From Raoultibacter phocaeensis (GTDB taxonomy: Bacteria; Actinomycetota; Coriobacteriia; Coriobacteriales; Eggerthellaceae), in contig NZ_CABDUX010000001.1 in the NCBI RefSeq assembly GCF_901411515.1, forward strand, positions 558,001 to 622,000: 64,000 nt of DNA, in the 5' to 3' direction. The translations under genes and the position numbers were made by a program. Positions 16,671 through 29,265 of this stretch are shown here, piece after piece (within the stretch, counting starts at the first letter, position 1; each line of letters opens with the position of its first letter). Below the pieces are notes generated by a model, which did not search any database, was not told the origin of the DNA, and saw only the letters and a program-made list of their open reading frames with translations.

Positions 16671-17567
16671 CTACAGCATCATCGGCACGACGATCGTAAC
16701 CGGCACCGCGCCCACCACGATCAAGAAGCGCAGTAGGAAACCGCCCACGAGCACGCCCACATCGGACGCGGCCGACAGGTAGTGCGCCTTGCGACTCTCC
16801 TCGAACTCGCGGGGCGAGAAGAACAAGAGCCACGTCTCGAGCAAAGTCGGAATTACAAGGCCCACGAGCACGAGCCCGATCCAGAACGGCAGCGCGTACT
16901 GGCCCACAAGCAGGTTCATGACCGAATTCCAACCGGCCTCGGAGTTGAACGACGTGATAAACATGAGCGAGGCAAGCAGCACAAGCTCGATGATCGGAAA
17001 GCAGAAGTGGAACTTCTTGAGAACGCCCACCATGTTGAACTCGTCGGCATGGCGAAACACCGCTATGAGCAGAACCGCCGCCGCACCGGCCGACATAGCC
17101 GACACGAGAAACAGGATCGGCAGAAGCGCGTTGTTCCACAAGGGAAACGTCTTGCAGACACCCAACAGCACGCCCGTGTAGATGGCCACGCACACCGCGA
17201 ACACCGTGCCCACGATGTCGAGCCACACCGGAATCGAGCGCTTGAGGAAATCGAGCAGCACAGCCACAAGCGAGATGACGACGAAGCCCGCGAGAAACAC
17301 GACGCCCCACGTCATCACCGATCCGAAGTTCGTGAGCAAGAGCGCGAAGCGCAGCGGATTATGCAAGCCGCCCTCGGCATCAACCATGAGCAGGCACAAA
17401 CCGATGATCACCACAATAGGCGCGATGATATGCGCGATCTTGCGCATGTTCACCGCTTCAGGGTGCTTCCATCCCAAAAAGGCCGAGGTGGCGAACGCGC
17501 CGCCGCCGAGACCCGCCAAGAACAGGTACCACGCGATGATGGCACCCCATACAGGTTCGAAAGACAT
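16671..17567 (-). CDS. NrfD/PsrC-family membrane subunit of a molybdopterin oxidoreductase
   Basis: This 298-residue, very hydrophobic protein has about eight to nine membrane helices and starts MSFEPVWGAIIAWYLFLAGL, the typical NrfD/PsrC opening. Such subunits anchor the periplasm-facing ferredoxin and catalytic subunits and exchange electrons with menaquinol. It is the last gene of the minus-strand operon, 6 nt after the ferredoxin subunit. The family member (polysulfide, DMSO, arsenate or other) cannot be set from this subunit. Confidence 0.88.
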   Translation of the reverse strand: MSFEPVWGAIIAWYLFLAGLGGGAFATSAFLGWKHPEAVNMRKIAHIIAPIVVIIGLCLLMVDAEGGLHNPLRFALLLTNFGSVMTWGVVFLAGFVVISLVAVLLDFLKRSIPVWLDIVGTVFAVCVAIYTGVLLGVCKTFPLWNNALLPILFLVSAMSAGAAAVLLIAVFRHADEFNMVGVLKKFHFCFPIIELVLLASLMFITSFNSEAGWNSVMNLLVGQYALPFWIGLVLVGLVIPTLLETWLLFFSPREFEESRKAHYLSAASDVGVLVGGFLLRFLIVVGAVPVTIVVPMML

Positions 17568-17573
17568 CGCTCA

Positions 17574-18119
17574 TCACCTCACATAAAAGACTTTGGCCTT
17601 CGTGAGGCTGCCCGCGATTGGCTGGGCGTTCTCTCTCACGATTGCCTTGGATATATCGCTATCGGGATCGTCGAGATCGCCGAAGATGCGCGCATCGGTC
17701 AGGCACGCATCGACGCACGTCGACATCTTCGTCCCCGATTCCGCCGAGCTCACCACGCAGAAGCGGCACTTGTCGACCGTCCCCGTTGTGTGGCTGTGCA
17801 CGCGCACCTGGTACGGGCACGCGGCCATGCAGTACTTGCACCCGATGCAACGCCCGTGATCGACGCCCACGATGCCGTCAGGTCCTTGGTACGCAGCGCC
17901 CGTCGGGCACACCGACACGCACGGCGCATCCTCGCAATGCATACACTGCAACGGCACCGTCTCGATCGACACGTTCGGATACGTGCCCGCCTCGCGTTCT
18001 TCGTAGCGGATGAACGCCTGCTCGGACTCGAGGCTGTTCTGCCGCTGACACGCTACACGGCACGCGTAGCAGCCGATGCATTTCTTGGTGTTGATCAGCA
18101 TTCCGTAGCGGGCCATCAT
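17574..18119 (-). CDS. Four-cluster ferredoxin subunit (DmsB/PsrB/NrfC type)
   Basis: About 181 residues contain four Cys clusters: KKCIGCYACRVAC, MHCEDAPCVSVC, GRCIGCKYCMAAC and KCRFC with a later CVDAC. This is the electron-transfer subunit between the NrfD anchor and the catalytic subunit. It has no signal peptide, as expected for a subunit co-exported with the Tat-tagged partner. The start codon overlaps the stop of the catalytic gene (ATGATGG), so translation is coupled; the second ATG (18116) is an equally good start. Confidence 0.9.
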   Translation of the reverse strand: MMARYGMLINTKKCIGCYACRVACQRQNSLESEQAFIRYEEREAGTYPNVSIETVPLQCMHCEDAPCVSVCPTGAAYQGPDGIVGVDHGRCIGCKYCMAACPYQVRVHSHTTGTVDKCRFCVVSSAESGTKMSTCVDACLTDARIFGDLDDPDSDISKAIVRENAQPIAGSLTKAKVFYVR

Positions 18120-20317
18120 GCACCTACTTTCTTCACCGATACGAGGGCTTCTTGCGTACAAGCCGCTCCGTATGCAGTCTCAATCCTGAAGGGCACGAAG
18201 TCCATCTGGCGAAGGCCGACCTCGTACGCCGTATGCTGGTCGGGAGACGAGCATCCGTAATGGCTCGGCATGTAGAGCGCCGTCGGGTTGATGCGCTGCG
18301 TTACCTTCGCACGGCAGCGTCCCGTGTGCTTCTCGTTCGAAACCTCCACCTCGTCACCGTCGGCAATCCCGAGTTTTTCAGCGACGTCGGCGTTAATCCA
18401 TACGCGCGTAAGGTCGTAATCCTTCGTGATCTGCATGAGATCTTCGATGTTCGCCGTTTGCGTATGGCTGTGGATGGCCTGCTTGCCGCCGATAAGCCTA
18501 AGTTCGTTGCCCGAGGGCATGACGGCGGGTTCCACCCACACGGGTGCAGCTGACAAACCTGCCGCCGTTGCCGCCTCGCTCGTAAACTGGATCTTACCGG
18601 TCGGCGTCTTCCACTCGGGTACCTTGCCGTACGAGAACTCTTTGTCCGGGAAATAGGCGACTCCGGTGGTTTTCAGAGCGTCGAGCGAAAGGCCGACGGT
18701 TTCAAGCTGCGCCTCGGCGAGCTCTTCAACCGTGAAGTCGAAGTACTGTCCCACGCCACATGCCTCGGCGAGTTCGGAGAATATCTCGTCGGACGTCTTC
18801 GTGTTCGGATGCACCTTTTCGATCACCTGGTCGCGCAAGGCAACGGCAGGAACGATGCCGCCGATGAATTCGGGCAGCTCCATACGCTCGAGGTAGCTGC
18901 ACTCGGGCAGCACGTAATCGGCGAGCAGAGCGGTTTCCGACATCTGCACGTCGACGACGACGCAGAGTTCGAGGTTCTCAAGCGCTTCGGCCAGATACGC
19001 GGTGTTCGAATATCCCGCAGCCATGTTCGAGTTGTAGAAGAACATGCCTTTGACTGTGCCTTCTTTCGCCTGTTGGGCGGCATAGAGGTTCGAACCCATG
19101 CTCGTAAGGGCAAGCGGATATTCTGCGGCGCCGAGCTGCTTGCCCTCGGGCTTGGGCACTGCCGGGAACTTCGCCTCGTCGAGATCGCCTGCCGAAACGC
19201 TCGGCGTAAACAGCGCACCTCCCTTTTGGTTCCAGCATCCCAGAAGCGTGTTGAACACGCAGATGGCGCGTGCCGTCTCGCCGGAATTCTCGTAAGCGCA
19301 TCCGAAGGCACCGCGCCAGCTCGGCTCGATGGAAGCAGCCGGGGCGGCATTTGCGAACTCGAATGCAAGCCGCGTGATGGTGTTCGCCGGAATGCCCGTG
19401 ATACCCTCGGCCCACTCGGGCGTATGCTCGACGATCTGAGCAGCCCATTCATCGAACCCGTCGACATTCGCCGCTACGAACTCCTTGTCGTAGCGCCCCT
19501 CACGCACGAGCACCTGCGACATCGCAAGTACGAGCGCGAGATCGGTCCCCGGATTGATGGGCACCCATTCGTCAGCGAAAATGCGGGTGTTGTTGCAGCG
19601 CGGATCGACGATGACGACCTTGGCTCCGCGCTCATGCGCCTTCTGGAGCGCCATCACAGAACTCGGACGGATGGCATCGGCGTAACTGCGCCCGATGAAC
19701 ATGACCATATCGGTGTTCTCGATATCCGATTCGTAGTTCCCCTTGCCGATGACTTGGGTGAAGCCGCTTTCTTTCGACAGGTTGCACGCGGCTCCGTGGG
19801 TGTAGAAATTCGGCGAGCCAAGCGCGTTGATGAACCGTTTCGTGTAGTACTTGCCCGACGGGCGCGGATCCTGCACCATGGCGAGGGCGCCGGGGCCGTC
19901 GGCATCGATGATGGACTTCACGCGATCGGCGATTTCACTGTACGCCTGATCCCATGAAATGGCTTCGAAGGAGCCGTCCTCCGTTTTTTTGAGCGGGTCG
20001 GTCAGACGGTCCTCGGAATAGGCGATCTGCGAATACCCGTATCCGCGGGCGCAGAGCTTGCCCTGCGCATAAGGGTGATCCTGATCGCCGATCAACCTCG
20101 ACAACCGCCCATCCGTAACATAAGCCGTGAACCCGCATTTTGTGGAGCAGGCGTTGCAGAGCGAGTGCGCCGTGGTCGTTTGACCGTGCGCTTCAGACTC
20201 TTCAGCATGCGCCTGTCCCCAGGCATCGAAGCTCAGGTATCCGGCACCTGCGACGAGCGCCACCGCACCCGCACTGCCGGCCAGGAAGCTTCGCCTGGTC
20301 ACTGCGTTTTCTGACAT
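18116..20317 (-). CDS. Tat-exported molybdopterin oxidoreductase, catalytic subunit (DMSO reductase family)
   Basis: 733 residues. The N-terminus has a Tat signal (VTRRSFLAGSAGA). A 4Fe-4S site follows (Cys54, Cys57, Cys61, Cys89; spacing C-x2-C-x3-C-x27-C). The molybdopterin domains contain THGAACNLSKES, where Cys178 is the likely metal ligand, placing it closer to PsrA/PhsA (polysulfide/thiosulfate) or similar Cys-ligated enzymes than to Ser-ligated DMSO reductases. The C-terminal dinucleotide-binding domain is present (PSHYGCSS near 700). With the ferredoxin and NrfD subunits it forms a three-subunit, menaquinol-linked reductase acting outside the membrane. The substrate is not predictable; Eggerthellaceae carry many such enzymes for varied acceptors. 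Confidence 0.88.
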   Translation of the reverse strand: MSENAVTRRSFLAGSAGAVALVAGAGYLSFDAWGQAHAEESEAHGQTTTAHSLCNACSTKCGFTAYVTDGRLSRLIGDQDHPYAQGKLCARGYGYSQIAYSEDRLTDPLKKTEDGSFEAISWDQAYSEIADRVKSIIDADGPGALAMVQDPRPSGKYYTKRFINALGSPNFYTHGAACNLSKESGFTQVIGKGNYESDIENTDMVMFIGRSYADAIRPSSVMALQKAHERGAKVVIVDPRCNNTRIFADEWVPINPGTDLALVLAMSQVLVREGRYDKEFVAANVDGFDEWAAQIVEHTPEWAEGITGIPANTITRLAFEFANAAPAASIEPSWRGAFGCAYENSGETARAICVFNTLLGCWNQKGGALFTPSVSAGDLDEAKFPAVPKPEGKQLGAAEYPLALTSMGSNLYAAQQAKEGTVKGMFFYNSNMAAGYSNTAYLAEALENLELCVVVDVQMSETALLADYVLPECSYLERMELPEFIGGIVPAVALRDQVIEKVHPNTKTSDEIFSELAEACGVGQYFDFTVEELAEAQLETVGLSLDALKTTGVAYFPDKEFSYGKVPEWKTPTGKIQFTSEAATAAGLSAAPVWVEPAVMPSGNELRLIGGKQAIHSHTQTANIEDLMQITKDYDLTRVWINADVAEKLGIADGDEVEVSNEKHTGRCRAKVTQRINPTALYMPSHYGCSSPDQHTAYEVGLRQMDFVPFRIETAYGAACTQEALVSVKKVGA

Positions 20318-21030
20318 AACTGTTTCCCTTCTATACCCTGCATATGGTTTGGAATCGGCGAAACCGCTCCCTGCTGGGCCCTGATTCCCAAGAGCACGTC
20401 TACAAGCCCCACGTAGAAACTCGTATCGTCTTCAAGGCTCAAGAGCCTTATACGGTAGGCGGTCAGCCATTCGAATCGCTCGGACAAGTACTGGCGCGCT
20501 TCGTCTCTCATGCCCGACCGCAAAAGCACCGCCACGAGATCGAGTTCGAGCGCCAAATGGTCCGGGCAGGCGGAAAACCGCTTCGGAAGCTCAAGGCCCA
20601 GCCGCCCGATCAAATCTCCCATGTACAGAGCCGAATCTCCTTGGTAGAGACCCGTTGTACGGGAAAACGGGGTGCGGGCAGCTTCGTCGTGAGACCACCG
20701 GACGTACAGCGATTCCACCGGAACGGCCGACTCGGGCAAACCGCCCGTGAAATGGCGAGCAGCGAAGCGCTCCTTCTCGGCAAACGTCGGCGGCGCGTAC
20801 AGCGCCTTCACCTCGCCTGCCGAAAGGAAATCCTGCAGCGGGCAGCGTCTGCCGACGCGCTGAATCGTACCGTGCGCGCAACCGAGCAGCTTTTCATCCT
20901 GCATCGCGCGACGCGCACCGTCGAGAAAGCCCGACCAGGTCGTGCTCTTCGTCAGCGCCTGCCATTCGCGCTCGTCGATCGGAGCGAAGCATTTCGACAT
21001 GATCGAGAAGATGTCCTCGTCCTCAATCAT
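20299..21030 (-). CDS. TorD/DmsD-family assembly chaperone
   Basis: This 243-residue, all-helical protein has the TorD-family pattern YMGDLIGRLGLELP and CPDHLALELDLVAVLLRSGM. These chaperones bind the Tat leader of the catalytic subunit and hold it until the cofactor is inserted. It lies just before the catalytic gene, overlapping its start by 19 nt, which supports a dedicated role for that enzyme. Confidence 0.85.
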   Translation of the reverse strand: MIEDEDIFSIMSKCFAPIDEREWQALTKSTTWSGFLDGARRAMQDEKLLGCAHGTIQRVGRRCPLQDFLSAGEVKALYAPPTFAEKERFAARHFTGGLPESAVPVESLYVRWSHDEAARTPFSRTTGLYQGDSALYMGDLIGRLGLELPKRFSACPDHLALELDLVAVLLRSGMRDEARQYLSERFEWLTAYRIRLLSLEDDTSFYVGLVDVLLGIRAQQGAVSPIPNHMQGIEGKQLCQKTQ

Positions 21031-21074: not shown

Positions 21075-21803
21075 CTATACGATGGTCGCCGTCGAAACCA
21101 CGCCCTGGGCGATAACTTCGTCGGCGATGTCTTTCCAGTCGATGAACTTGATAGCGCCGTTGGGACACTGCTCGGCGCAGCGGCCGCACGAGATGCACTT
21201 CGTCGATTTACCCGTTTCGGAATCGACGACCGGCATGTTCCACGGACATGCCGCATGGCACATTCCGCAGCCGATGCAACGCTCGGAATCAACGACGCGC
21301 GCGCCCGATTCTTCGTCACAGTAAATCGCATGGACGGGACAGTAGTTCATGCATTGCGGATCGGCGCACTGCTTGCAGCTCTCGATGGTGAACTGGCAGT
21401 TTTCGAATGCGCCGTCTTTCGTGTCGACACCGTGGCCGTAATTGTAGTTCGGCCAGACGCGAACGCGGGCGATGCTCTGGCATACGCGCCCGTCGTTCTT
21501 GAGCGTGCACATCATCTCGCAACGCTGGCAGCCCGAGCAGCGGGCGCGGTCGGTGACGATCATCTTGGTTGGAGTGGTGCGGATGGTCACGCGTCCCGAC
21601 GCAATCGATTCGGATGTCACGCCCCAGGTGGCCAGGACGCCTCCGACAACGAGACCGGCAACGCCGCATCCCGCCATCGCAAGAACTTGTCGGCGGGTCA
21701 CCGTTTTGCGCGGCTTCGCATTCGAGCCATCGGTTTCAGGCAGAGCCTCGGAATCGGGCGTCTGCTGCGGTGAAACCTGATCGTGCAGATTGGTATCTGA
21801 CAT
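21075..21803 (-). CDS. Tat-signal four-cluster ferredoxin
   Basis: 242 residues. A hydrophilic 30-residue lead precedes a twin-arginine motif (TVTRRQVLAMAG, Arg37-Arg38) and a hydrophobic helix (VAGLVVGGVLATW). Four Cys clusters follow (ARCSGCQRCEMMC, ESCKQCADPQCMNYC, ERCIGCGMCHAAC, KCISCGRCAEQC). It is therefore exported or membrane-tethered on the outer face. It is the first gene of the minus-strand operon (44 nt before the chaperone gene) and is divergent from the AOR-family gene. It may carry electrons for either enzyme; in Escherichia coli the AOR homologue YdhV is encoded with ferredoxin-like YdhY, a similar pairing. Confidence 0.85.
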   Translation of the reverse strand: MSDTNLHDQVSPQQTPDSEALPETDGSNAKPRKTVTRRQVLAMAGCGVAGLVVGGVLATWGVTSESIASGRVTIRTTPTKMIVTDRARCSGCQRCEMMCTLKNDGRVCQSIARVRVWPNYNYGHGVDTKDGAFENCQFTIESCKQCADPQCMNYCPVHAIYCDEESGARVVDSERCIGCGMCHAACPWNMPVVDSETGKSTKCISCGRCAEQCPNGAIKFIDWKDIADEVIAQGVVSTATIV

Positions 21804-21943
21804 AGTTTCTTTCTCCCCTCACGTACTCGTCTGTGAGTTCTACTTCGTTGGTACGGCCCGTATCCGGGGCCCTTTCCTCCCTTGAAACTCGCACAGCACC
21901 CTCACACAACACCAAGCATTCTGCCCGCCCGCGCGGGATGCCA

Positions 21944-21962
21944 TTACCCTCTTTGAGAGTAA
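21944..21962. promoter_or_regulatory. Putative operator (CTC-N3-GAG dyad), copy a
   Basis: TTACCCTCTTTGAGAGTAA is a 19-bp dyad. Two copies (this and 21981-21999), 37 bp apart centre to centre, lie in the divergent region between the Tat-ferredoxin operon and the AOR-family gene. A third is at 27537-27555 beside a membrane LuxR gene. Confidence 0.6.
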
Positions 21963-21980
21963 AGTCGCAGATCATGGGAA

Positions 21981-21999
21981 TTACCCTCAAAGAGGGGAT
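21981..21999. promoter_or_regulatory. Putative operator (CTC-N3-GAG dyad), copy b
   Basis: TTACCCTCAAAGAGGGGAT has the same dyad as copy a with an inverted AAA centre. Read on the other strand it matches 17 of 19 bases of the copy at 27537-27555. Confidence 0.6.
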
Positions 22000-22112
22000 A
22001 CGCGCTTTCGCCCGGATCGCATACTCGCAGACGACGATTTTTCGTCCATGCTGCCCAATATCTCGCATGTCCTTCACACAACACAGGACCCAAGAGATTT
22101 GGAGATAACACC

Positions 22113-24242
22113 ATGGCTGACCAGAAATCGTACGGATGGGCCGGAAAGATACTGCGCGTCAATTTGAGCACAGGATCTATTTCCACCGAGCCGACCGATC
22201 CGTATAAGCTCTACATCGGGGGCATGGGCCTCGCCAACAAGATCATGTACGACGAAGTGCCCGCTGGAACCGATCCTTTGTCGCCCGAGAACAAGATCGT
22301 ATTCGCCGTCGGGCCCCTGACAGCATCGGGCGTGCCGCTGGCAGGGCGCACAACCATCTGCTCGTTGTCCACATTCACGAAAGATCACCTCATCGTCGAC
22401 GCCCATTGCGGCGGCATGATCGGTGCGAAGATCAAGCTCGCCGGCTACGATGCGATCGTGGTCGAGGGAGCATCGGATCACCCGGTGTACCTCAACATCA
22501 AAAACGAGAAGGTCGAGATCAAAGACGCTTCCGACGTGTGGGGCATGGGCACGCGCGAGGCAACCGAGGCGCTGAGCCGCAAAGAAAGCACGAAAGCCTG
22601 CGTTGCAACCATTGGGCCCGCAGGCGAGAACCTCCTACCGTACTCGTGCATCATCAACTCGCGCAACCACTCGGGCGGCGCGGGCGTGGGAGCCGTCATG
22701 GGCTCGAAGATGTGCAAGGCGCTCGTCGTCGAGGGAGACGGTTCGGTGAACGTGGCCGATCCGCAAGCGGTTGCCGACTTGTCCGACTACATGCTGCGCG
22801 AGGTTATCGGCTCGAACAACAACCACGTCGTGCCGCAAACCCAACAGGAGTGGGCCGAATACTACGACAAGGGCTCTCGTTGGTCTGCGCGCAAGGGCCT
22901 CACCTGGGGCATCGCAGAGGGAGGAGCCATCGACGTCGGCGAGCCGAAACCGGGCGAGCTCAACACCGTGGGCTACCGCTGCATGAAATCGGTCTACGAC
23001 CTCGGCGAGGTTGCCGAAAAGTACACCGTCAAGATGAACGGCTGCCACAGCTGCCCGATCCACTGCTATTCGGATCTGCGCATCGACCGCACCGCCGAGC
23101 TCGGCGGCAAGGCGACCGCCGGCAACACCTGTGCCGCAAACTTCCCCTTCAAGTACATGAACGGCATCCTTAAAACCGATATCAAGGAAGACACCGAATC
23201 GGGCATCCTCTGGAACACGCTCATCGGCACGACGATCGACGAGCTGGGCCTGTGGTGCAACTACGCGCAGCTCTGGCGCGACTTCGCCCACTGCATCAGC
23301 GCAGGCGTCTTCGACCGCGTACTGCCCGAAGAGGAAAAGGCGCTCTTCGACTGGAACCGCATCTACGAAGACGATCCCACCATCATGGTCGAGGTTCTCA
23401 ACAAGATCGCGCAGAACGATTCGGAGATCGCGTACCTCGCGTACGGTCCTTACGTTTGGGCCGAGCGCTGGGACGATGCCGATTGGTTCAATCAGAAGCC
23501 GAGTGCGCTCATCAATTACCGCGGCTGGCCCGTACATCATGCGACCGAATGCTTTGGCCAGGTAGGCGGCGTGTACAACATGATGTTCAACCGCGACGAC
23601 ATGATTCACTCCGCCGTGAACTTCCAAGGCTGCGGGCTTCCCTTCGAACTCAAACAGCAGATTGCCGAAGAGGTATGGGGCGGTGCCGATGCAATCGACC
23701 CCGACAAGAATTACACCCCCATGAACGACCACAAGGCGAATTTCTGCTGGTGGTCTATCGTCACCGACGTGTTGCACGACTCGCTCACGCTGTGCAACTG
23801 GGTATGGCCGATGACCATGAGCCCCACCAAACAGCGCGATTACCGCGGTGACCTCGATTTGGAGGCGAAGTTCTACAAGGCTGTCACAGGCGAAGACGTC
23901 ACGACCGACGATTTGTACCAGGCGGGTGCACGCATCATGACGCTCCAGCGCGCCAACACCGTACGCGGCATGACGAAGGCGGACGGCACGATGGGCAACA
24001 ACGATCTGCGCAACGACCACGATCGCATTACCGATTGGGTGTTCGATCACGATCCCGATTTCGAGCCCTTCACCGAAGGCACGATCAAAATCGACCGCGA
24101 CGACTTCCAGACCGCGCTTTCTATGGTGTACGGAAAATTCGGTTGGGATGAGACGCTCGGATGCCCCACAGCCGAATGCCTCGAAAGCTACGGCATGACC
24201 GATGTGAAGGAAGACCTCGATTCGCTCGGGCTGCTTCCGTAA
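22113..24242 (+). CDS. Aldehyde:ferredoxin oxidoreductase-family tungsto/molybdo-pterin enzyme
   Basis: 709 residues of AOR type. The N-terminal domain reads GWAGKILRVNLSTGSIST and LYIGGMGLANKIMYDE, with the pterin-contact segment GRTTICSLS near 90. The 4Fe-4S cysteines are in NGCHSCPIHCYSD (C-x2-C-x3-C, about 310-317), with the fourth probably in LTLCNWVWP. There is no signal peptide, so it should be cytoplasmic. AOR enzymes oxidise aldehydes to acids with ferredoxin, but the family includes YdhV-like members of unknown substrate, and this one sits beside an exported ferredoxin. Two putative LuxR operators lie upstream. Confidence 0.85.
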   Translation: MADQKSYGWAGKILRVNLSTGSISTEPTDPYKLYIGGMGLANKIMYDEVPAGTDPLSPENKIVFAVGPLTASGVPLAGRTTICSLSTFTKDHLIVDAHCGGMIGAKIKLAGYDAIVVEGASDHPVYLNIKNEKVEIKDASDVWGMGTREATEALSRKESTKACVATIGPAGENLLPYSCIINSRNHSGGAGVGAVMGSKMCKALVVEGDGSVNVADPQAVADLSDYMLREVIGSNNNHVVPQTQQEWAEYYDKGSRWSARKGLTWGIAEGGAIDVGEPKPGELNTVGYRCMKSVYDLGEVAEKYTVKMNGCHSCPIHCYSDLRIDRTAELGGKATAGNTCAANFPFKYMNGILKTDIKEDTESGILWNTLIGTTIDELGLWCNYAQLWRDFAHCISAGVFDRVLPEEEKALFDWNRIYEDDPTIMVEVLNKIAQNDSEIAYLAYGPYVWAERWDDADWFNQKPSALINYRGWPVHHATECFGQVGGVYNMMFNRDDMIHSAVNFQGCGLPFELKQQIAEEVWGGADAIDPDKNYTPMNDHKANFCWWSIVTDVLHDSLTLCNWVWPMTMSPTKQRDYRGDLDLEAKFYKAVTGEDVTTDDLYQAGARIMTLQRANTVRGMTKADGTMGNNDLRNDHDRITDWVFDHDPDFEPFTEGTIKIDRDDFQTALSMVYGKFGWDETLGCPTAECLESYGMTDVKEDLDSLGLLP

Positions 24243-24373
24243 GAAGCTCTCGGCGTTTCGCATGCAGGGATACAAGGCGGCAGGCGTCGACCCCCAGGGC
24301 GTTTCGCGCGTCGGCGCTCATGCGACGGCAGAAACGCTGCCGTAAACCGATTCGAGCCGCATCCCTCTGCGGC

Positions 24374-24411
24374 CACCCGAAGACCCTCGCATGTGCGGGG
24401 GTCTTCGGGTG
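24374..24411. terminator. Hairpin between convergent genes
   Basis: CACCCGAAGACCC (24374-24386) pairs perfectly with GGGTCTTCGGGTG (24399-24411) around a 12-nt loop. It sits between the convergent AOR-family and ADP-ribosylglycohydrolase genes. No long T-run follows, so termination efficiency is uncertain. Confidence 0.65.
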
Positions 24412-24412
24412 C

Positions 24413-25243
24413 CTAGAACAAGCACGCCTCCATGATGCCGCGCCCGCGCAATGCGCCGATCCATGCGCGTGGTATGGCATCGTAGCCGTAGACGATGCCT
24501 GCCAACCCGCCCGTGACGGCACCGACCGTATCGGTGTCGTCGCCAAGATTTACTGCGGCGAGCACCGCATCCTCGAAGCTATCGGTGGTTGCGAGGCTCC
24601 AGAGCGCTGCTTCGAGCGTATCGACCACGTATCCGGTCGAGCTGATTTCGTCGCGCGAGAAGGAGGCGATACCCGATAGGCGCTCGAACGGCCTGCCTTC
24701 GACAGGCTCGGCAATCGCTTCGCCAACCGATGCACCCGCGAGCAGGCGCTGCGCAAGCCGCACGTAAATGACGCAGGCGTGTTTCGCAATCGCATGGGCA
24801 TGGGTGATCGCCGAAACCGCCTCGATCTGCGCATCGGTGATACCATCGACGAAGGCAAGCGGCACTGCGCGCATGAGCGAGCCGTTGCCGTTGTCGCGCT
24901 CGCCATCGAGCCCCCGCCCCTCGCGAAGCGCTTCTGCTGTCGTGCGGCCAACATCGAACACGTCGCCGTCAACCACATAGGCTCCGTCGAACAACCACGC
25001 TCGGTACCGCTCGCGCATGTCATCGACATCGATGCCGCCGCAGATGCGGATGCTGTTGGCCGTCGCAAGCGTGAGGCTCGTATCGTCGGAGAACGTTCCC
25101 GCGGGCTTTCCGTACGTGCCGCCGCCGATCATGCCCTCGATGCGATAGCTGTCGCGCGCCTTGAATTCAACCGGCACCCCGAGCGCATCGCCCACCGCAA
25201 CACCGTATATCGCATCGCGAACCGTTCGCCTAAGCCGTGTCAT
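24413..25243 (-). CDS. ADP-ribosylglycohydrolase-family protein
   Basis: 276 residues with the hallmarks of the ADPRH/DraG fold: an early GVAVGDALGVPVEF, SDDTSLTLA (metal-binding aspartates), DNGNGSLMRA in the middle and NLGDDTDTVGAVTGGLAG near the C-terminus. These residues bind two magnesium ions and remove ADP-ribose from proteins or small molecules. The gene stands alone, so the substrate is unknown; nitrogenase-type control is unlikely as no nitrogenase genes are nearby. Confidence 0.88.
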   Translation of the reverse strand: MTRLRRTVRDAIYGVAVGDALGVPVEFKARDSYRIEGMIGGGTYGKPAGTFSDDTSLTLATANSIRICGGIDVDDMRERYRAWLFDGAYVVDGDVFDVGRTTAEALREGRGLDGERDNGNGSLMRAVPLAFVDGITDAQIEAVSAITHAHAIAKHACVIYVRLAQRLLAGASVGEAIAEPVEGRPFERLSGIASFSRDEISSTGYVVDTLEAALWSLATTDSFEDAVLAAVNLGDDTDTVGAVTGGLAGIVYGYDAIPRAWIGALRGRGIMEACLF

Positions 25244-25509
25244 GTATACCTCCTCGTCAGGTTACGGCATCAGTATACGGAAACCAACACCGACCCTGCG
25301 ATGCTGTTCAAAATCTGCAATCCGTCACACCGCTTCAAACCCTTCCTGCGGCCAGATTACACGCGGGCCCGAGGAAGCATCCCTACGCTTTGGCACCTTG
25401 ACATCGGGCGAGCGCACCGTTCACGCGTCAATCGCCGCATTTCCTAGACATGGGCACGAGGCATATCGCACGCATTTCACCCTTCTCTGTTCCCGTCGTC
25501 TCGAATTTC

Positions 25510-25657
25510 GGCACAAAATTAGAGGTTTGACAATTAGGGAATACCATGCATTTTAGTTTCAGATCACCAAGCATTATAATGCCTGGTCATTTTTAGTCAG
25601 TATCAGATGCAGTATGCGTAAGGTAATACTGTTTTGTCAAACCTCCAATTTTGTGCC
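25510..25657. repeat. 148-bp inverted-repeat element, 24-bp arms with one mismatch
   Basis: Arms 25510-25533 and 25634-25657 (GGCACAAAATTAGAGGTTTG and onward) are complementary at 23 of 24 positions. The centre holds a second near-perfect palindrome around CATTATAATG. The size almost equals the 147-bp element at 16171, and the arms share ACAAAAT and GTTTG blocks. The rest of the 545-bp gap (25244-25788) has no recognisable gene. Confidence 0.7.
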
Positions 25658-25788
25658 CGATTTAGGGAATCCAGGAGCACAGCGGCGGAACTGCTGCCGA
25701 CCGACTCGGCAGATTTACACCCGCATCCTACAGTTTACCGCCAGGCACGCAGGGGTCCCAGGAGCAGCAAGAGCGGTGAGACTGGAGT

Positions 25789-26874
25789 CTACAGGTACAT
25801 CCCCCGCTCGACGGCATGCCATTCGGCAAGCGAAGCGGCATAGGCGGAGCTCAGGTACTCGGTCGAGTAGAAGAACACATCGCCGTTCGAGGCTACCGTG
25901 GTTTCGATGTCGGGGTACGCACCCGATTCGCGGATGGCGTTCCACGTTTCTTCGATTTCCTCGTCGCTCATGCTGAACGGTTCGTTCTTCAAACCATCGA
26001 TCGACATGGGGCGTGGATAGGTGCGAGCCTCTTCGCGCACGCATTCGACAAAGGTGACAATGCGGTCGTCTTCACGCGCGAGAAACGCCCAGTGAGCGTA
26101 GCGGTCGGTCATAATGTCTCTCGAATAGAGATAATAGCTTCGCTTGCCTACGAGCACGGCGATATCGTCGCAGGCGAGTGCATCGGCAGCGTCTTCTTCG
26201 TCGATCGGCACAAGCGTCAGCTCGCCCTCCAACTCTACCAGTTCAAAGCCTTCGGGGATTGCGAAATCGGACAGGGCGAGCTCGGGATCGCTTGAATTGG
26301 GGGCGGCAACATCGGTCTGGGTGGATTCAGGGTTATCCGAATAGGGAACAACAACATCGCTCGGGGTAGGCTCATCCCCATCCGTATCGGAAATGGCGAA
26401 ATCAGACGATCCGGATTCAGCTTCTTCAACAAGGGGAATCATACCATCGGGCGAAGCGGACTCGTCTTCGCCACCAACCGGCCCAGACATTCGGGGAACC
26501 CCTACGGCACGCGTTGCGGTACGGTACACCGGCTCGGGCTCGGTAGGCTTCACAGGTTCTTCGGCCCGATGCCCTTCGAGGTACTCGTACACGAGCATCT
26601 CGAATTCATCAGGCTCCCTATGGTCGGGCACCAGCCCCGCCTGCACCCAATCCTCGGGAGCAACCAGCCGGCCGTCTGCCGAAGCCTCTCGCACATCCGC
26701 GAACACCGCGGCAAGCGCTTCCCGATCATCGGCGGCTTCGAAAGCCGCAATCTCTTCAGGAGTGAATTCGGTTTCCTCGAAAGGCAATGCGTCCTCATCG
26801 TTGCAGACGGCATCCTCGAATTCGCACCCAGCGTTGTTCGCCGAAGCGTTCTCGTCCGTGAATTCTTCTTCCAT
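25789..26874 (-). CDS. Acidic protein of unknown function with repetitive linker
   Basis: I do not recognise this 361-residue protein. The N-terminal third is highly acidic (FEETEFTPEEIAAFEAADD). The middle (about 130-205) is a low-complexity linker with imperfect 14-residue repeats built on the pattern DFAI-SD and VVVPYSDNPESTQTDVAAPN. The C-terminal 125 residues look like a folded domain (GKRSYYLYSRDIMTDRYAHW, then NGDVFFYSTEYLSSAYAASL). There is no signal peptide or membrane helix. It is encoded 7 nt after the NifU-like gene, so the two are probably co-expressed. Confidence 0.7.
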   Translation of the reverse strand: MEEEFTDENASANNAGCEFEDAVCNDEDALPFEETEFTPEEIAAFEAADDREALAAVFADVREASADGRLVAPEDWVQAGLVPDHREPDEFEMLVYEYLEGHRAEEPVKPTEPEPVYRTATRAVGVPRMSGPVGGEDESASPDGMIPLVEEAESGSSDFAISDTDGDEPTPSDVVVPYSDNPESTQTDVAAPNSSDPELALSDFAIPEGFELVELEGELTLVPIDEEDAADALACDDIAVLVGKRSYYLYSRDIMTDRYAHWAFLAREDDRIVTFVECVREEARTYPRPMSIDGLKNEPFSMSDEEIEETWNAIRESGAYPDIETTVASNGDVFFYSTEYLSSAYAASLAEWHAVERGMYL

Positions 26875-26881
26875 ACCGATC

Positions 26882-27481
26882 CTATCCCGCCGCTCGCCCG
26901 AACCGAAGCTCGATGCGCCCGTCGCGCAGCGAACAATGCTCGGTCATGATGCATCCAACACTGCACGTATCGCACAAAACGCGCCGATCGAGGTCATCAA
27001 TCCCTGCGCCTTGACGAATCAGATAGTCTCCGACCAGGGCTCGAATGCCCTCTATGGCGAAATACACCGTATGGATGCGATCCCATGGCACACCGTCGAG
27101 AGCGCCTTTGATGTCCTCGCCCGTGATGGCAAGCGCCTCATCGAGCGTTTTGCCCTCGAGCATCGAGCACACCGTACTCGCGCACGCCGTCATGGCAAGG
27201 CAGCCGCGCGATTTGAACCCTACCCGCACGAACGCCTCTTCGTCCGGATCGACAACGGCAAACAAGCGCATGGCAACTTCCCCGCGCTTCGACTTGCCGA
27301 CCATGCATTGCGCGTTGAACCCGTCGGGCGCACCGCTGTTGCTGAACGTAGCCACTACCGAAAGCAGCGTGTCTGAATAGCCAGTCGTCCCGATCTCGCT
27401 TTCGGTTTGATAGACGTCGGCAGTGCGAATGACCGCCCGCTCGACGGGTTCGATATACACGTTTCTCTCCGACACGCGCAC
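26882..27481 (-). CDS. NifU/IscU-like scaffold protein with C-terminal Cys cluster
   Basis: 199 residues. The core resembles the NifU N-terminal/IscU scaffold: a KRGEVAMRLF strand, GCLAMTACASTVCSM, then GKTLDEALAITGEDIKGAL and HTVYFAIEGIRALVGDY, which match the helix pattern of NifU proteins. An extra tail carries CDTCSVGCIMTEHC (Cys170, 173, 177, 183; C-x2-C-x3-C-x5-C), which could hold an Fe-S cluster. It may build or sense Fe-S clusters. It is divergent from a membrane LuxR gene and shares a putative operator with the AOR/ferredoxin region, suggesting a link with those iron-sulfur enzymes. Confidence 0.7.
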   Translation of the reverse strand: MRVSERNVYIEPVERAVIRTADVYQTESEIGTTGYSDTLLSVVATFSNSGAPDGFNAQCMVGKSKRGEVAMRLFAVVDPDEEAFVRVGFKSRGCLAMTACASTVCSMLEGKTLDEALAITGEDIKGALDGVPWDRIHTVYFAIEGIRALVGDYLIRQGAGIDDLDRRVLCDTCSVGCIMTEHCSLRDGRIELRFGRAAG

Positions 27482-27536
27482 CTCGCTTTCTCATTCGTTT
27501 CTATACTTCCATGATGTCCAAGCGAGCAAAACCACC

Positions 27537-27555
27537 ATCCCCTCTTTGAGGATAT
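27537..27555. promoter_or_regulatory. Putative operator (CTC-N3-GAG dyad), copy c
   Basis: ATCCCCTCTTTGAGGATAT lies 56 bp before the NifU-like gene and upstream of the divergent LuxR gene. It is the third copy of the dyad seen twice at 21.9 kb, which suggests the adjacent LuxR protein binds it. Confidence 0.55.
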
Positions 27556-27720: not shown

Positions 27721-29265
27721 TTGGCAGAACGAATGCACGAGGATACCATTCGCGATACTCCGAGAAAAAGCGGCCTCGCCGACTTCTTCAAAACATATCT
27801 TCCGCTGTGGCCGTTCGTGCTTGGGCTCGCATTCGCCCGCTCGGGGCTCATCGTGGCGAGCTACGGCAGCTATACGCAAACCGATGAAGGCGTGTTCACC
27901 GACGGCGGCATGCTCATCGCGCTTTTCTTTCTGGGCATCTCATGGGCTGTTTCCGCTGTCCGCAAAACCAAATACACCAAGAAGCAAGTCGGCACCCTCA
28001 TGGCGGCAAGCGTCGCCCTCGAAGCGGTGGCGCTTGTCGGCTTAACGGGCATGGAGTTCTTCGCCATCCATAACGATGGGATCAAACTCGCCCTCTGTGC
28101 GGGTTGCACGCTTTTCGGATCGCTCGCCTTGTACTACTGGCTTCGCCGTGCGCGCGGCTCAACAACGACCATCACCGCCGTATACGTGTTCGCCGCGCTA
28201 TTTCTCAGCGAGATTATCATATACCTCTGCGCGCTGCTGCCTCATGCGGTCGCATATACCGTCGGCGCGCTGTTCGTCGTCGCCCAGTACCCCTGCATCG
28301 TTGTCTCGAGAAACCGCAGCAAGCTTTTGCTTGCTCCCCCCGATACCAAAGCACACGATTACTTCGGCTTTGCAAAAACCCTGATATCGAACAAGCAGTT
28401 TCTCGCCGTTACCGGTATCGGCATCGGGCTGCTGTCGATCGTCATCGGCTTGCTACGCGGCTATCCCGATGGTGCGCCCATCGCGTTTGAACCAGCGACG
28501 CGCATCGCCTATATGGTGCTCACCATGGCGCTTTCTGCCGCAATCATCGTCCTTGTCGTACGGGGTAAAGGACAGGTCATGACGATCGGAATTTGGATCA
28601 TCATGCAAACACTCGCCTGTTTGGCCCTGATCGCCTACACGGCGTTTCCCGAAAGCCTCGATATCGGGGCCCTGTTCACCACGACGCTCAACGCCATGAT
28701 GGTCGGCTTCACCTGGTATGCCGTCGTTGCGTTCATGAGCTACGGTTGGCGCGATCCGTACTACTACGCCATCGCGTGCTGGCTCGTCTGGCTTGGCAGC
28801 AGAGCCATCGCCCGTATCGTTCTGATTGAGATGTACCCGCTCTCGATGAACGACTCGCTTATCGCAACGCTTATGGGGGCGTTGATCGTCGTTTCCGCCC
28901 AATCGGTGTTCGTCCAATTCATCTACATCGCCAAACGGGAAAACGAAGACGAACAGGAAAAGGTTGCTTCGCGCCACAGCGCGCTGGTCAAGTTCATGGG
29001 CCTCGACAACAACGAGAGCCTCTCCGACATGCGCCAGGCCACCATGGAACACAATGCCGAAGAGATGGGCAAGCAGTTTTTGCTGTCCGAGCGCGAAATC
29101 GAGGTGCTTACGCTGTACGCGCTCGGGTTCACGCAGAAGCGCGTGGCCGAAGAGCTCTACATCAGCCAGGGCACGGCGCACGCCCACATCAAACGCATCT
29201 ACGCAAAAACCGGGCTGCATTCGCGCCAGGAAATTCTTGACTATATGAAGCAGTATACGTCGTAG
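27721..29265 (+). CDS. Membrane-spanning LuxR-family regulator
   Basis: The N-terminal ~400 residues form about twelve hydrophobic helices (KTYLPLWPFVLGLAFA first). The C-terminus is a LuxR HTH (LSEREIEVLTLYALGFTQKR, HIKRIYAKTGLHSRQEILDY). Regulators of this architecture are widespread in Eggerthella, where several control adjacent reductases in response to their substrates. I choose the TTG because GGGAGGA sits 5 nt before it; ATG 27733 or 27658 are alternatives. It is divergent from the NifU-like gene, and the dyad at 27537 lies between them. Confidence 0.85.
   Translation: MAERMHEDTIRDTPRKSGLADFFKTYLPLWPFVLGLAFARSGLIVASYGSYTQTDEGVFTDGGMLIALFFLGISWAVSAVRKTKYTKKQVGTLMAASVALEAVALVGLTGMEFFAIHNDGIKLALCAGCTLFGSLALYYWLRRARGSTTTITAVYVFAALFLSEIIIYLCALLPHAVAYTVGALFVVAQYPCIVVSRNRSKLLLAPPDTKAHDYFGFAKTLISNKQFLAVTGIGIGLLSIVIGLLRGYPDGAPIAFEPATRIAYMVLTMALSAAIIVLVVRGKGQVMTIGIWIIMQTLACLALIAYTAFPESLDIGALFTTTLNAMMVGFTWYAVVAFMSYGWRDPYYYAIACWLVWLGSRAIARIVLIEMYPLSMNDSLIATLMGALIVVSAQSVFVQFIYIAKRENEDEQEKVASRHSALVKFMGLDNNESLSDMRQATMEHNAEEMGKQFLLSEREIEVLTLYALGFTQKRVAEELYISQGTAHAHIKRIYAKTGLHSRQEILDYMKQYTS

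Follow-up and report, generated by a model that had tools for sequence, protein, structure and literature searches.

Genes of the locus

The window (the whole 64,000-nucleotide stretch of Raoultibacter phocaeensis DNA that was analyzed) carries a minus-strand operon of five genes in the order worS/ydhY, torD, PhsA-like molybdopterin subunit, second 4Fe-4S protein, and nrfD. The first gene (21075..21803) encodes a WorS/YdhY homologue, a 4Fe-4S protein with the Tat motif TRRQV that scores 221.7 against the NCBIfam model PRK09898 (cut-off, 213). It is followed by a TorD-like chaperone (20299..21030; PF02613), a Tat-exported PhsA/PsrA-like molybdopterin subunit (18116..20317; PF00384, PF01568, and PF04879, with PRK15488 below its cut-off), the second 4Fe-4S dicluster protein (17574..18161; PF13247), and, as the last gene, an NrfD membrane subunit (16671..17567; PF03916). 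On the plus strand, 22113..24242 encodes a WorL/YdhV homologue of the AOR family (PF02730 and PF01314) that reaches 1081 bits against the NCBIfam model PRK09849 (cut-off, 868). A further minus-strand operon encodes a NifU_N-type scaffold protein with a GTG start (26882..27481; PF01592) and a 361-aa YdhW-family protein (25789..26874), the latter matched by NCBIfam PRK09947 on C-terminal residues 233-357 (E value, 1e-30), below the full-length cut-off. We take PRK09849 and PRK09898 to be the models of Escherichia coli YdhV and YdhY, respectively.

By profile matches and subunit make-up, the enzyme set is placed as a Class V WOR/ydh-type system, and the AOR-family protein, the Tat-ferredoxin, and the protein adjoining NifU are assigned as homologues of E. 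coli YdhV, YdhY, and YdhW. The set includes a WorL related to YdhV (PRK09849 above cut-off), a WorS Fe-S subunit with a Tat signal (PRK09898 above cut-off; TRRQV), and an extra membrane-associated subunit, NrfD, which lies in the same operon and is conserved along with it. Since its second protein is the YdhW homologue, the nifU operon appears to belong to the same system. The earlier note had described an AOR-family enzyme plus a molybdoenzyme with an Fe-S scaffold; the enzyme description is refined here to one predicted Class V WOR/ydh-type system. The NifU-like and YdhW-like proteins are fused into one ORF in two genomes that have no LuxR (L172:10248-11759 and L175:11319-12962), which suggests that the two may act together. 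A 148-bp MITE-like element with 23-bp inverted ends (GGCACAAAATTNGAGGTTTGACA) occupies positions 25510-25657, between an ADP-ribosylglycohydrolase-like gene and the ydhW-like gene, and its end sequence has 36 genomic copies (≤3 mismatches), including twelve inverted pairs with a spacing of about 126 bp.

In E. coli, ydhYVWXUT is a single operon under the control of FNR, NarL, and NarP (Partridge et al. 2008, as cited in PMC4549865). The R. phocaeensis system shares the YdhV, YdhY, and YdhW homologues but is spread over three transcription units. It further includes a PhsA-like molybdoenzyme, NifU-like, TorD, and NrfD proteins, and a membrane LuxR of its own. The coriobacterial Class V WORs of clade 41 are described in PMC13328260 as consisting of WorL, a Tat-type WorS, a transmembrane (TM) subunit, and a pyranopterin subunit of unknown role, the same make-up as found here; the Class V section of that source does not deal with how the genes are regulated, with YdhW, or with a NifU-like protein.

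The regulator is a LuxR protein of 514 aa on the plus strand (27721..29265), read from a likely TTG start at 27721 with GGGAGGA ahead of it. A C-terminal helix-turn-helix (HTH) domain of the GerE/NarL type is matched by PF00196 (48.9 bits) between residues 476 and 529 of the 535-aa ORF, and its predicted recognition helix reads H487-A-H-I-K491-R-I-Y494. Hydropathy gives ten hydrophobic spans, one of them sufficient for two helices, or about 12 helices. The AlphaFold model, built from a two-row alignment, has the HTH at a pLDDT of about 85 and likewise 12 helices in the membrane part, at a low confidence (pLDDT, <45). The protein thus combines a C-terminal PF00196 HTH with 10 to 12 N-terminal TM helices, the helix model being of low confidence, as expected of a 10-12-TM LuxR.

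Three dyads and their predicted promoters

Three 19-bp dyads with the layout TACCCTC-3 bp-GAGGGTA lie at the positions that the earlier note had given. Dyad 1 (21944-21962; TTACCCTCTTTGAGAGTAA) and dyad 2 (21981-21999; TTACCCTCAAAGAGGGGAT) occupy the divergent region between the FeS (worS/ydhY) operon and the AOR gene (worL/ydhV), as putative operators of the respective promoters, and dyad 3 (27537-27555; ATCCCCTCTTTGAGGATAT) lies in the nifU/luxR divergent region, as the putative operator of the nifU-ydhW promoter. Dyad 3 is identical to dyad 2 at 17 of 19 positions on the opposite strand, again as noted earlier, at a distance of 5,556 bp from center to center. Dinucleotide-preserving shuffles of the window yielded 0.00 to 0.01 matches (≤3 mismatches), compared with 2 and 3 observed. 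A search of the whole 3.86-Mb genome, the first check that the earlier note had proposed, confined full matches to this locus: WWMCCCTCWWWGAGGGKWW occurs at 0 to 1 mismatch only as the three dyads, with no further regulon members at that threshold, and allowing 2 mismatches adds one genomic place. The exact core CCTCWWWGAGG is found five times genome-wide, twice within the locus.

Each dyad center lies 30 bp from a predicted -10 element, CAGAAT for the FeS operon (21918..21923, minus strand), CATACT for the AOR gene (22020..22025, plus strand), and CATCAT for the nifU-ydhW operon (27511..27516, minus strand). Across genomes, a -10 hexamer at +30/31 from the dyad center was found for AOR in 49/58, for FeS in 44/57, and for nifU-ydhW in 25/40. 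With one genome per genus, the corresponding values are 13.5/23, 14.8/23, and 14.9/20, compared with 0.6/21 on the LuxR side. In the dyad-centered alignment, the CATACT/CATCAT-like -10 is the main other conserved feature common to the three target promoters. A -10 that starts 30 to 31 bp from the dyad center puts the dyad near -42, the position of a class II activator; by this predicted spacing, the operator lies near -41.5 and overlaps the -35 in most genomes. Within the FeS/AOR gap, the final two dyads are separated by 37 bp here and by 17 to 197 bp elsewhere (most often 48 bp), so that they do not make up a fixed array and each would go with a promoter of its own.

The earlier note had placed dyad 3 beside luxR, which is correct, but the placement of the -10 shows it to face nifU-ydhW and not luxR. 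Its center lies 65 bp from the nifU start codon and 175 bp from that of luxR. A -10 toward luxR at +31 occurs in only 3/47 genomes, and none is found at that spacing in this locus, so that autoregulation of luxR through dyad 3 is not supported. A separate conserved element, GTTGYGTG, lies about 8 to 15 bp past the FeS-operon -10 in many genera (L111-L124) and is possibly a start-region or leader element.

The layout recalls the 7-2-7 sites of E. coli NarL, in which inverted half-sites also start with TACCC and are read by a recognition helix of the same family. The present dyad departs from these in its gap of 3 bp rather than 2 bp between heptamers and in the downstream half-site letters, and its regulator carries a membrane sensor instead of a receiver domain.

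Conservation of the dyads and covariation with LuxR

We compared 138 genomes of the family, scoring presence or absence of LuxR genome-wide at the single threshold of E ≤ 1e-60; 67/138 genomes encode LuxR by this measure, and 70/138 encode the AOR protein. The earlier note had named absence of the dyad from orthologous loci that keep the same genes as the finding that would speak against it; at such loci the dyad is present, and more than 20 genera retain it in both intergenic regions (the FeS/AOR gap and the one ahead of luxR). The dyads persist down to about 40% LuxR identity, despite rearrangements in which nifU and ydhW are swapped or AOR has shifted to the other side of luxR, and also where the molybdoenzyme is a replacement of 35 to 40% identity. 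Of the two half-sites, the one nearer the promoter (GAGGGKAT) is more strongly conserved, and the flanking columns are mostly without conservation. At five LuxR-positive loci (G028, G039, G052, G102, and G133), the dyad departs from the pattern by more than 2 mismatches.

Presence of the dyad follows presence of LuxR. The FeS/AOR gap contains a dyad (≤3 mismatches) at 56/58 LuxR-positive loci but only 2/7 LuxR-negative loci, and in both of these exceptions the contig breaks off short of the luxR position; excluding them leaves 0/5. The association is significant by Fisher's test (P = 5e-5; P = 3e-6 without the two short contigs; P = 3e-4 at the genus level). Five genomes (G011, G051, G075, G076, and G126) keep the WOR operon and have neither the LuxR orthologue nor the dyad, and within a single genus (g20), G050 has LuxR and dyads while G051 has neither. 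Genome-wide, dyads number 90 versus 19 for a reversed-pattern control in the 67 LuxR-positive genomes, as opposed to 29 versus 27 in the 71 LuxR-negative genomes. Independent losses of LuxR are few because only about four genera are without it, and the co-occurrence of LuxR, dyad, and genes is in part shared ancestry.

The letters of the dyad also change with the recognition helix among LuxR paralogues. In the class-A proteins, H487, H489, K491, R492, I493, and Y494 are invariant (60/60). In clade B, K491 is replaced by G, T, or S, and the adjoining dyad reads GTGTCMTCT-N5-AGAKGACAC. Clade C (H489Y) adjoins TTACCCTNAAANNGGGTAC, clade D (H487R, A488V, and R492H) adjoins TACCCCCTNAGGGGGTA, and pair E (K491R and R492H) adjoins ATCCTCTC..GAGAGGAT. 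Clades B, C, and D each form a monophyletic group (bootstrap support, 99 to 100%), and the size of the dyad stays similar as its letters change. The clade D helix, STVRVHIKHVY, resembles STVKVHVKHML of NarL, and the clade D dyad resembles an engineered NarL site, TACCCCTAAAGGGGTA (PMC4549865). Poor clade B sites exist as well (L153 and L154). By eye, the promoter offset of +30/31 is seen again in clade B (L191), clade C (L188), and pair E (L182 and L183), in each case at the site nearest the promoter, and an offset of +32 is seen, likewise by eye, in clade D and in G040. A K491G or K491T replacement would be expected to abolish recognition of the class-A dyad and might confer recognition of GTGTCATCT. 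Clades A and B meet as tandem luxR genes at a single locus in G019 and G020 (L133 and L152), and in G020 a clade B dyad is also found near a second torD-molybdoenzyme operon.

A proposed regulatory model and its reach in the family

The three dyads are very probably operators of the neighboring 12-TM LuxR, which is predicted to activate all three transcription units. From sequence comparison, the proposal of the earlier note that LuxR controls the AOR-family enzyme, the five-gene operon, and the NifU-like operon together is supported, in that the dyad follows the LuxR orthologue and shifts with its recognition helix. We infer that the C-terminal NarL/GerE-type domains would bind the 19-bp dyad TTACCCTC-WWW-GAGGGTAA directly and as a pair, centered about 42 bp upstream of the three predicted transcription starts and overlapping the -35. 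These starts would fall about 7 bp past the -10 elements, near 22032 on the plus strand and near 21911 and 27504 on the minus strand. Bound LuxR would then contact RNA polymerase and activate worL/ydhV, worS/ydhY-torD-molybdoenzyme-FeS-nrfD, and nifU-ydhW, so that a signal sensed by the membrane domain would switch on the chaperone, the scaffold proteins, and the entire Class V WOR/Ydh-type membrane oxidoreductase. A ydh-type system scattered over three transcription units, one dyad each, would in this way be tied together by one 12-TM LuxR.

It is unlikely, in our estimate, that LuxR instead represses the three promoters from the dyads until a ligand frees it. A dyad over the -35 could equally block RNA polymerase, but class II activators classically have their center near -42, ydhYVWXUT of E. 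coli is activated by FNR at -42.5 (PMC3688515), and the three characterized 10-12-TM LuxR members are activators (PMC9734109). We regard as quite improbable a regulator encoded elsewhere (e.g., one responding to Mo/W, Fe-S, or redox state), with LuxR a mere neighbor. Although a global regulator of cofactor supply would suit the gene set, no result of the analysis favors another regulator, and such a reading is at odds with the confinement to three genomic sites, with the LuxR-less genomes that keep the operons without the dyad, and with several paralogue clades in which altered recognition-helix residues of LuxR go with altered dyad letters. A role of the dyads in RNA, as terminator or attenuator hairpins, has a negligible chance; each might fold into a short stem closed by a loop of three bases, but there is no T-run, the half-sites covary with a DNA-binding protein, and we rejected this reading since the dyads lie upstream of -10 elements at a fixed spacing. 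Hardly any probability attaches to a functionless leftover of local duplication, which the clustering of all dyads within 6 kb might suggest but which is already contradicted by their conservation at equivalent places in more than 20 genera among mostly unconserved flanking columns, and by the lack of excess over the control pattern in LuxR-negative genomes.

The proposed activator resembles DadR, HcdR, and CadR of Eggerthella lenta, which are 10-12-TM LuxR regulators of the Coriobacteriia (Dong et al. 2022, PMC9734109), in its membrane domain of about 12 helices, its C-terminal LuxR HTH, its metalloenzyme gene neighbors, and its bacterial class. Those regulators act on one adjacent operon, whereas it is predicted to control a Class V WOR whose genes are divided among three transcription units. 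By analogy with these regulators, the signal is probably the substrate. An operator and a promoter geometry are proposed here, while the main text of PMC9734109 gives no binding motif, and we found no operator described in the literature for the gut-bacterial 12-TM LuxR family.

Roughly 97 LuxR matches occur in the R. phocaeensis genome. Palindromes beside 40 paralogous luxR genes reach 8/8 at 4 loci (0.5 expected) and do not exceed expectation at 7/8; the enrichment is mild in the former and nil in the latter, so these palindromes are a hint. Strong dyads, such as AATCACATGGTGCATGTGATT, lie close upstream of paralogous membrane luxR genes in the same genome (L240, L247, L236, and L215), and three of these share TCAYRTG-type half-sites. 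The genetically tractable E. lenta retains the locus with an orthologous luxR. In G054, which we take to be E. lenta DSM 2243, an 8/8 dyad (AAATCATCAATAATTGATGATAC) with the -10 element TAGCAT at +31 separates a luxR gene from a divergently oriented TorD/molybdoenzyme operon around 562.9 kb (L249). At the LuxR-LysR locus of G054 that fits dadR/dadh (dadR/dadS), the best dyad is without a -10 at +30. Because this DadR-activated promoter, the sole experimentally characterized one examined, departs from the geometry, the latter cannot be taken as established family-wide.

Several paralogue clades lead us to suggest, tentatively and with slightly less than even confidence, that the whole 10-12-TM LuxR family of the Coriobacteriia may use one readable code, a 17- to 23-bp dyad centered 30 to 31 bp upstream of a CATACT-like -10, with the half-site set by few recognition-helix residues (487-492 here). 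If this code is true, the regulons and inducers of drug-, polyphenol-, and steroid-metabolizing enzymes would be predictable from sequence. According to a 2026 survey, neither an activity nor a physiological role has been assigned to any Class V WOR (PMC13328260). Together, the dyad, the promoter spacing, and the helix covariation give the gut-bacterial 12-TM LuxR family a first operator rule that can be tested, and a membrane sensor with a defined operator would offer a handle on the inducer, and hence the likely substrate, of a Class V WOR.
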